A stretch of 64,000 nucleotides of DNA, taken from Terriglobia bacterium (lineage in GTDB: Bacteria; Acidobacteriota; Terriglobia; Terriglobales; Acidobacteriaceae). The notes beneath the pieces are model-generated. The model did no database searches and was not told the DNA's origin. It saw only the letters and a program-made list of their open reading frames with translations. Positions 45,890 through 49,109 of this stretch are shown in pieces (the stretch's first letter is position 1; every line of letters begins with the position of its first letter). The stretch is from contig JAIQFD010000002.1 in NCBI GenBank assembly GCA_020073495.1, positions 124,001 to 188,000 on the forward strand. The letters run 5' to 3'. The translations under genes and the position numbers were made by a program.

Positions 45890-46978
45890 ATGAGGAGCAG
45901 CGCCGCGCCGCGAGGCACGGCTGAAGTCCAGGACGAGAGCAAGCGCGCCGCCACCGTGGACCTGCGCAGCGACACGGTGACGCGGCCCACGCCCGCCATG
46001 CGCCGCGCCATGGCCGAGGCCGAGGTCGGCGACGACGTCTATGGCGAGGACCCGACCATCAATCGCCTGGAGCACCGCGCCGCCGAGACCTTCGGCCGCG
46101 AGGCGGCGATCTTCGTGCCCACCGGGACCATGGGGAACCAGATCGCCATCAAATGCCACACCCGGCCCGGGCAGGAGGTCATCTGCGAGGCGCGCTCGCA
46201 CATCCTGGATTACGAGATGGCAATGCTGGCGCACTTCTCCGGGTGCATCCCGCGCGCGGTGCCGGGCGAGGACGGCATCCTGCGCTGGAGCGAGATCAAG
46301 AAGAAGATCCGTCCCAAGACGTACTACGTGGCGCAGACCGGCCTGGTCGAGCTGGAGAACACGCATAACATGGGCGGCGGGACGGTGTATCCGACCGAGG
46401 TGGCGGAGGAGATCTGCGACGGCGCACACCAGGCCGGCCTGCCGGTGCACCTGGACGGCGCGCGGGTGTTCAACGCCGCCGCCGCGCTGCAAAGGCCGGT
46501 GGCGGAGATCACGCGCAAGTTCGACTCGGTGATGTTCTGCCTGTCGAAAGGCCTGGCCGCGCCCGTGGGCTCGCTGCTGGTGGGCAGCCGCAAGTTCATC
46601 GACCAAGCGCGCGTGTACCGCAAGGCGCTGGGCGGAGGCATGCGGCAAGCGGGCATCCTGGCGGCGGCCGGGCTGATCGCTTTAGAGGAGATGCCGAAAC
46701 GTTTGCACGAGGACCACGCCAACGCTCGCTGGATGGCGGAGGAACTGGCGAAGGTCCGCGGCATCAAGCTCGACGCGAAAAAGGTCGCGACCAACATCGT
46801 GGTGTTCAACGTCGCGGGGACGGGGAAGACTTCGGCGGAGATCTCGCGGGCGCTGGCCGAGCGGGGCGTGCTGATCAACGGCATCGACCCGGAGAACATG
46901 CGCCTAGTGACGCACATGGATGTGGACCGAGCCGCCTGTGGGCGTGCCCTGGAGGCGCTGCGGAAGGTCTGTGGGTAA
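45890..46978 (+). CDS. ltaE: Low-specificity L-threonine aldolase (beta-eliminating-lyase fold)
   Basis: 362 residues. PLP enzyme splitting threonine to glycine and acetaldehyde. Motifs: [81 protein letters not shown], the PLP-Lys in [15 protein letters not shown], and [17 protein letters not shown]. An extra N-terminal ~20 residues precede the family core, so the true start may be a little later. Single gene. Confidence 0.93.
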
Positions 46979-47066: not shown

Positions 47067-47525
47067 ATGAGCATCAACCTGGAGTACTCGGCGACGGCGA
47101 AATGCCGTCCGGAGCACATCTGGAAAGTGTTTGAAAAACTGGAGCAATGGGCTTGGTGGAACCCCGGCATTGGGCGAACCAAGTGGACCAGCGGCGAGCC
47201 CTGGCAGAAGGGCAGCCACTTCGACATGGAACTGGAGCGGCCCAGGCGCCTGAAATTCGACTGCGAGGTGCTGGAGCCTTCCATCCCCAACAAGGTCGGC
47301 TGGCGCGGCAAGGGCCACATGACCATCGGTGAGCACTGGTTCAGCTTCGAGGAGCAGCCCAGCGGCACAACCCTTTTGAAGACCTGGGAGACCCTTTCGG
47401 GCTTTGGATCCATGTTCATCGGCAAGGGCATGCAGCAGAAGACGCTTGACTCGTACAAGCTCTGGTTCGAGCGCTTGGCGGCGGAAGCGGAGAAGATCGC
47501 GCGCGAAGAGTTAGCGAAGGCATGA
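47067..47525 (+). CDS. SRPBCC/START-like domain protein
   Basis: 152 residues, RBS AAGAGGGAG about 11 nt upstream. Single helix-grip domain: YSATAKCRPEHIWKVFEKLE, WAWWNPGIGRTKW, KGSHFDMELERPRRLKFDCE, VGWRGKGHMTIGEHWFSFEE, ETLSGFGSMF, and the long C-terminal helix MQQKTLDSYKLWFERLAAEA. SRPBCC domains bind hydrophobic ligands or act in polyketide and lipid metabolism; no specific role. Its stop overlaps the start of the selenoprotein gene as ATGA, so the two are likely coupled. Confidence 0.85.
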   Translation: MSINLEYSATAKCRPEHIWKVFEKLEQWAWWNPGIGRTKWTSGEPWQKGSHFDMELERPRRLKFDCEVLEPSIPNKVGWRGKGHMTIGEHWFSFEEQPSGTTLLKTWETLSGFGSMFIGKGMQQKTLDSYKLWFERLAAEAEKIAREELAKA

Positions 47526-47743
47526 ATATCGAGATCAGGCGCTGCTTCTTTTGAAGGGACATCCGTGCCCGGGCGGGCAGACTACGCGACGAACTGCGCC
47601 AGGCGCTCGGTGTCGAGGCCAAGATCCGGATGGGAGCGCCGGGCGCCCTGGACGTGATCGTGGACGGGCGGAAAGTCTTCTCGGCGAAGCAGGCGGGCCG
47701 ACTGCCCACGGCGGCGGAAATCGTCAAAGCAACCCGGCAGTAG
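47522..47743 (+). CDS. SelW/Rdx-family selenoprotein (in-frame UGA as Sec)
   Basis: Reads as 73 residues if UGA at 47552-47554 is selenocysteine: MNIEIRRC-FF-U, i.e. a C-x-x-U redox motif with Sec at residue 11. Downstream is the Rdx fold: LRDELRQALGVEAKIRMG, then ALDVIVDGRKVFSAKQAGR, then LPTAAEIVKATRQ and TAG. That C-terminal pattern (VDGxxxFSxKxxGRxP) is diagnostic of SelW/SelT/SelH proteins, and C-x-x-U is the usual Sec site there. Sixty-two sense codons with high GC3 follow the UGA, and the start overlaps the SRPBCC stop. A conventional caller would miss it. Confidence 0.78.
47566..47579 (+). promoter_or_regulatory. Candidate bacterial SECIS hairpin
   Basis: TGCCC/GGGCA stem (5 bp) around loop GGGC, starting 11 nt after the UGA; the loop begins 16 nt after it. 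Bacterial SECIS elements lie directly downstream of the UGA with at least one G among the first loop bases; this fits. The outer stem is short. Confidence 0.55.
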
Positions 47744-47966: not shown

Positions 47967-49109
47967 TTGGATTTTCAACCCAACGAAGAACAGTTACAGC
48001 TGAAGAAAAGCGTGCGTGAGTTCGCGGAGCGCGAGATCCTGCCGCACGTGATGGAATGGGATGAGGCCTCGCACTTTCCCTGCGAAATAGTCAAGGAACT
48101 GGGCCGGCTGGGCCTGATGGGAGTCATCTTCCCCCAGGAGTACGGGGGGGCGGGCATGGGATACGTGGAGTACGTGACCACCATCGAGGAACTGTCGCGG
48201 GTGGACGGCTCGATCGGCATCATCGTGGCGGCGCATACATCCCTCTGTTCCAATCACATCTTCATCGCGGGGAGCGAAGAGCAGAAAAAGAAGTACATCC
48301 CCAAGCTGGCGACGGGGGAGTTCATCGGGGCATGGGGGTTGACCGAGCCGGGTGCGGGCTCGGACGCAGGCTCGGCGCGTATGACGGCGGTGCGCAAGGG
48401 GAACAAATGGGTGCTGAACGGCACCAAGACTTTCTGCACCAATGGCCACTACGCGGACGTATTGGTGGTGATCGCGGTGACCGACAAGACGGCGCACACG
48501 CACGGGCTCTCGGCGTTCGTCGTGGAGAAGGGAACGAAGGGATTCAAGCCGGGCAAGAAAGAGAACAAGCTGGGTCTGCGCGCCAGCGACACCGCGGAAT
48601 TGATCTTTGAAGATTGCGAGATCCCGCTGGAGAACCTGGTGGGCAAGGAGGGCGATGGGTTCGTCGACGCCATGCGCGTGCTCGACGGCGGACGGATCTC
48701 GATCGCAGCGCTGGCCCTGGGCATGGCCCAGGGCGCGTACGAGTCGGCGCTGAAGTACTCCAAGCAGCGCAAGCAGTTCGGCAAGCTCATCAGCGAGTTC
48801 CAGGCCATCCAGTGGAAGCTGGCGGACATGGCTACGGAGATCGACGCAGCGCAACTGCTGACCATGCGCGCCGCAGACATGAAGGACAAAGGCATGAAGA
48901 CCACGCTCGAGTCCTCGATGGCGAAGCTCTACGCCAGCGAGGTGGCAGTGCGCTGCGCCAATGAGGGAGTGCAGATCCACGGCGGGTACGGCTTTGTGAA
49001 GGATTACCCGGCGGAAAAGTTCTACCGCGACGTGAAGCTATGCACCATCGGCGAGGGCACCAGCGAGATCCAGCGGCTGGTGATCGCGCGGCAGGTGCTG
49101 AAGGAATAG
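47967..49109 (+). CDS. Acyl-CoA dehydrogenase
   Basis: 380 residues from a TTG with GGAGGGAG upstream. FAD-dependent alpha,beta-dehydrogenation of acyl-CoA. Motifs: [121 protein letters not shown] (with the catalytic Glu), and [15 protein letters not shown]. Fits short-chain or branched-chain types; the neighbours (meaB, mce) suggest a propionyl/methylmalonyl-CoA or branched-chain pathway. Confidence 0.95.

Follow-up and report, generated by a model that had tools for sequence, protein, structure and literature searches.

The locus examined here raises the question of whether an in-frame TGA codon near the beginning of a short open frame terminates translation or is read as selenocysteine (Sec) in a functional gene of the SelW-like/Rdx family. 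In the window (the whole 64-kb stretch of DNA that was analysed), the frame opens with an ATG at 47522, continues for nine more codons to the TGA at 47552-47554 and then runs for 62 further codons to a TAG at 47741-47743. The earlier note had described an ATG that overlaps an SRPBCC stop codon as ATGA, a frame broken by this TGA only, and the residues C-F-F-(UGA) at positions 8-11. The ATG at 47522 and the end of the SRPBCC ORF (47067-47525) indeed overlap in this way, the coordinates of the frame are exact to the base and the residues are found in the translation. With the TGA read as Sec, the full product has 73 aa (MNIEIRRCFFU...VDGRKVFSAKQAGRLPTAAE...) and carries the motif R-C-F-F-U. On the evidence set out below, the TGA at 47552-47554 is very probably read as selenocysteine in a functional SelW-like/Rdx selenoprotein gene. 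The features of the locus were listed in Table 1.

Table 1. Features of the candidate selenoprotein locus and its neighbours (positions in the window)
Feature	Position	Strand	Remark
Low-specificity threonine aldolase-like gene, conserved upstream neighbour	45890..46978	+	Named from its own sequence; 16/27 loci
SRPBCC protein gene (Pfam Polyketide_cyc2), overlaps the selenoprotein start by ATGA	47067..47525	+	Present in 11/27 fetched loci
SelW-like (Rdx) selenoprotein gene (very probable), 73 aa, Sec at position 11, stop TAG	47522..47743	+	Pfam, family conservation, dN/dS, predicted fold
Cys8 codon, presumed resolving Cys of C-F-F-U	47543..47545	+	Invariant in alignment A3
In-frame TGA, codon 11, very probably read as Sec	47552..47554	+	Codon also TGA in 26 fetched family loci
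Candidate bacterial SECIS hairpin UGCCC-GGGC-GGGCA	47566..47579	+	Loop 16 nt after UGA, -7.5 kcal/mol, borderline
Site of family SECIS stem (CAGGC-CGUGA-GCCUG in relatives)	47570..47584	+	3/5 pairs possible in the window
Acyl-CoA dehydrogenase gene, conserved downstream neighbour	47967..49109	+	17/27 loci

The 62 open codons and their high GC3 had been offered as an argument against a decayed gene, and this argument did not hold up by itself. An open frame proves nothing alone, because 244 TGA codons of the GC-rich window have at least ten open codons before them and 62 after them in the same frame. The abundance of equally open frames counts for the reading in which the TGA is an ordinary stop, with a 10-codon leader or a chance ORF before it and a decayed Rdx gene or an unrelated open frame after it. 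The candidate stands above chance because of three further observations, namely homology to Pfam Rdx, the same TGA codon in 26 genomes and purifying selection past the TGA.

The product matched Pfam Rdx (PF10262) with 29.4 bits (cut-off 22.6), residues 3-71 aligning to positions 2-72 of the 74-position profile, and 17 of 22 family members matched the same profile at E 0.001. Whole-length matches were also obtained to NCBIfam NF041051 SelTWH_Campy (E 3e-9, 36.9 bits) and TIGR02174 CXXU_selWTH (E 7e-6, 26.3 bits), but both lie below their cut-offs (88 and 34.2, respectively), so these models alone would not name the gene. AlphaFold2, run on a 22-row alignment, gave a model with a pLDDT of 85.8, in which a strand (residues 3-7) is followed by the motif and then by a helix (residues 12-29). 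The best PDB matches of the model are all SelW-related (2fa8, 2obk, 2p0g, 2oka and 3dex; TMq 0.79-0.85), with a TM of about 0.8 and E about 1e-4 for 2fa8, 2p0g and 2obk, and mouse SelW comes next. A thioredoxin-like SelW fold with CxxU between strand 1 and helix 1 is thus predicted, and profile alignments put CxxU at the CxxC of 2fa8, 2oka and 2p0g or directly beside it, a coincidence of Cys and TGA with the Rdx redox site that argues against an ordinary stop. The protein resembles PF10262 members and these five solved CxxC proteins in predicted fold and in the position of the redox motif; unlike the latter, it has Sec in place of the second Cys, is shorter (73 vs about 104 residues) and shares about 22-27% identity with them. 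Of the SelW/Rdx-type label in the earlier note, the Rdx part is borne out by Pfam and the predicted fold, and an assignment to SelW, SelT or SelH proper is not; 'SelW-like/Rdx' is the safer name, because the NCBIfam scores are under their cut-offs and the protein belongs to a separate clade, here called RCxxU after its motif.

Conservation of the codon was assessed among relatives of the host. When 100 related genomes were searched with Pfam Rdx, six loci of the host's own taxonomic family were found, which were matched only from about profile position 12 on. When their frames were followed upstream of the match, TGA was present at this codon in all six, within (K/R)RCF(F/L/W)U, and this agreement is non-circular because the Pfam match excluded the TGA region. 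A profile of the six loci, run over 398 genomes of the host's taxonomic family, matched 34 of them. The RCxxU motif was read in 26 fetched loci, each from a different genome, with TGA as the sole internal stop and always at the same codon, which tells strongly against an ordinary stop; scattered stops are not typical of the family homologs. One further fetched locus (L065) is of a different type, SCPTU. The comparison proposed in the earlier note, of homologs with Cys or UGA at this codon against homologs with scattered stops, therefore came out for UGA, and exceptions are rare. Two genomes that keep selA and selB lack the codon, one reading RCFWE with GAA instead of UGA (G039, locus L064) and the other TPLFP without UGA (G024, locus L058), and these represent a lost or altered function, not the customary exchange of Sec for Cys. 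The third exception is genus g35 (G169 and G423), where there is no internal stop and the G169 locus (L066) reads CTQC, that is CxxC; neither selA nor selB was found over cut-off in these two genomes. Over the taxonomic family, selA was above cut-off in 29 of 30 genomes with CxxU vs 152 of 368 others (Fisher p 6e-10, a value that ignores shared ancestry). The only CxxU genome lacking it is the sister genome G001, of the same genus as the window genome, which has selB (380 bits) and no selA match at E 0.001; its assembly consists of 260 contigs and the missing selA is perhaps an assembly gap. In other searches, alignment A1 retrieved five named loci and a scan of genome contigs with the single protein gave no matches; the more diverse alignment A3 contained no sufficiently conserved stretch.

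Selection was measured by Nei-Gojobori counting, restricted to the codons that follow the TGA. Between the window gene and that of the sister genome, dN/dS is 0.25, with 15, 11 and 31 differences at codon positions 1, 2 and 3, respectively, and values of 0.06-0.46 were obtained in seven other pairs; the two other frames showed no comparable constraint in the same test. The codons past the TGA are under purifying selection, and the concentration of differences at third positions is a further point against an ordinary stop. That reading, to which the borderline SECIS of the window lends some additional weight (see below), is already largely refuted by conservation, and we regard it as very improbable.

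Whether the host can insert Sec at all was examined in its genome (3.70 Mb in 8 contigs, with a completeness rating of 100%). Genes for a tRNA-Sec(UCA) (65.5 bits), selB (373 bits), selA (566 bits) and selD (376 bits) are all present. The selD gene (L018:1480-2766 on contig C4 of genome G000) is a selenoprotein gene in its own right: it contains a single in-frame TGA (AAGUASKL), and a clean, strong SECIS hairpin of 7 bp (GUCCGGC-GGU-GCUGGAC) has its loop GGU 20 nt past this UGA. The expectation in the earlier note that this organism makes selenoproteins is supported by these genes, all four of which it had named as the ones to look for. The next-best tRNA-Sec matches, on contigs C1 (L003) and C4 (L005), are tRNA-Ser according to ARAGORN. 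The tRNA-Sec gene adjoins a peroxiredoxin-like gene (L002:1656-2429) that has Cys (TPVCTTEF) and not Sec at its presumed active site.

The TGA might instead stand for some other residue, inserted for instance by near-cognate tRNA-Trp, or be a sequencing error for TGC or TGG. Low-level read-through of UGA by tRNA-Trp occurs in bacteria generally. Nothing specific in the data supports either version. Against them, the same TGA recurs in many independent assemblies, UGA also serves as an ordinary stop (it ends the adjacent SRPBCC gene, as well as this ORF in several relatives), the codon occupies the position of a redox Cys and the genome has a dedicated tRNA-Sec. We consider the chance of such decoding or error negligible, and selenocysteine remains the preferred reading of the codon.

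A bacterial SECIS element is expected directly downstream of a Sec codon, and according to the published model it has a loop of 3-9 nt with G in the first two positions, a stem of 4-16 bp, a distance of 16-37 nt from the UGA and an MFE of at most -7.5 (PMC13188914). In relatives, the loop of a family hairpin, CAGGC-CGUGA-GCCUG, lies 20 nt past the TGA. As RNAalifold gave no consensus structure for the 26 rows, pairs were counted on the named stem. This stem is paired in 82% of cells (26 rows) vs 21-51% when one arm is slid, and includes six double-sided cells, such as a compensatory C-G to G-C change. Since amino-acid conservation could mimic pairing, codons were redrawn synonymously from the pooled set 300 times as a control. 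The real stem has 107 of 130 pairs vs a mean of 77.5 after redrawing (sd 4.9, maximum 92 in 300), and its summed energy is -300 vs -210 (sd 15). A hairpin just after the TGA is thus selected across the family beyond synonymous codon choice.

The window gene differs from this family picture, as the family stem is broken in both the window genome and its sister. The candidate hairpin of the window (loop GGGC, 5 bp, 16 nt, -7.5 kcal/mol) fits the model of PMC13188914 with spacing and energy exactly at the limits, which 9.7% of window TGAs also pass. The 52 nt of the window's own sequence, when folded, gave a z-score of +0.97, which is no support alone. In the synonymous-redrawing test, the window's row had 3 of 5 consensus pairs and a fold energy no better than that of synonymous shuffles; Rfam had no match in the selenoprotein gene region. 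There is therefore strong evidence of a SECIS at the level of the family, and the evidence for the window gene is only permissive. The broken stem also raises the possibility that the Sec codon is functional in the family and that the lineage of the window has lost efficient recoding through SECIS degradation and is in early decay. This we consider very improbable, because a replacement hairpin is common to both genomes (CGCCC-GGGC-GGGCG in the sister, with the loop GGGC again at 16 nt), the coding sequence between the two is still under purifying selection and selB is kept in both. A working Sec codon is the reading we favour, and the SECIS position appears to have shifted in the window's genus.

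If so, the hairpin just downstream of the UGA would recruit SelB carrying Sec-tRNA(UCA), and SelB would insert Sec at codon 11 instead of termination. The product would fold into a 73-residue thioredoxin-like Rdx/SelW domain, whose active site, Cys8-x-x-Sec11, would lie where helix 1 begins. A redox function has been inferred from the CxxU of SelW-like proteins in general (PMC1088965), and the most likely chemistry here would be a thiol/selenol redox cycle via a reversible Cys-Sec selenylsulfide. The neighbour counts in Table 1 refer to 27 fetched loci, some of which end too early to tell. In the window, the SRPBCC gene and the selenoprotein gene are likely co-transcribed, and the ATGA overlap suggests translational coupling, such that translation probably follows that of the SRPBCC gene via the junction; any link to the SRPBCC protein itself is conjectural.

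Of 396 genomes searched across the phylum, 107 gave matches, and a single internal TGA was present in most of these. The matches that were read (L081-L108) are mainly YCxxU-NYxPxA SelW-like proteins, widespread across families of the phylum. In a tree of 63 rows (a short alignment, unrooted), the 30 RC rows are set apart by a branch supported at 100/98 and found in 100% of bootstrap trees, and RCxxU is thus a sister clade to the common YCxxU proteins or a derived-looking one. Prokaryotic SelW-like selenoproteins have been known since 2005-2006 (PMC1088965, PMC1794560). Like them, including the acidobacteriotal YCxxU type, the RCxxU proteins are short Rdx proteins with CxxU and a SECIS hairpin directly downstream and need the Sec machinery; they also share the scarcity or absence of Cys homologs reported for SelW-like proteins in Sec-containing organisms (PMC1794560). 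They differ from the YCxxU type in having R-C-x-x-U, not Y-C-x-x-U-N-Y, in their separate clade, in being almost confined to one taxonomic family and in their frequent gene neighbours (threonine aldolase-like, SRPBCC and acyl-CoA dehydrogenase). Those members of the clade that have names are MAGs; their labels are Acidobacteriaceae, Acidobacteriales and Terriglobia and, in a single case, Rokuibacteriota. Judged by its relatives, the window's genome is taken to be that of a Terriglobia acidobacterium. In the Rokuibacteriota-labelled MAG (L074, VGLJ01000037.1), the RCxxU gene lies inside the acidobacterial clade, and the case is one of a mislabelled genome or horizontal transfer.

Four selenoproteins in three families were counted for Acidobacteria in PMC1794560, and we found no paper naming SelW-like proteins of Acidobacteriota specifically; that count leaves earlier notice of some member possible. 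To the extent that this could be checked, four things are new: the gene, the RCxxU clade, the neighbourhood of the clade and the apparent SECIS shift in one genus. The results indicate that at least two selenoproteins are made by this acidobacteriotal lineage (SelD and the RCxxU protein), and they add a clade whose small selenoproteins would be truncated at codon 11 by standard gene callers. Homologs, machinery and a synonymous-site control are the evidence that sets a genuine Sec codon apart from the hundreds of TGA frames that are open by chance in GC-rich DNA, and the conserved RCxxU hairpin with its apparent relocation in one genus offers a test case for the SECIS needs of SelB. We put forward only tentatively, as a possibility rather than an expectation, that RCxxU forms an Rdx subfamily with a function of its own, dependent on Sec almost without exception and linked to the neighbourhood of SRPBCC and acyl-CoA dehydrogenase genes, in which the SECIS was shifted in the window's genus with Sec insertion kept.

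Two minor observations were made on related frames. Downstream of the UGA, the YCxxU genes L081-L108 carry a closely similar inverted repeat that is rich in GC, in many cases GGCCGCC...GGCGGCC. A second kind of short Rdx-like frame, in genome G223 (L065:1501-1761), reads S-C-P-T-U (MKVEIRSCPTUEGNKAKAASLAAM...), has another C-terminus and scores 21.3 bits with Pfam Rdx, just below cut-off; five further genomes (G146, G267, G110, G056 and G149) gave partial matches of similar extent with one TGA, presumably of the same SCPTU type, and these frames are possibly another undescribed type of selenoprotein.
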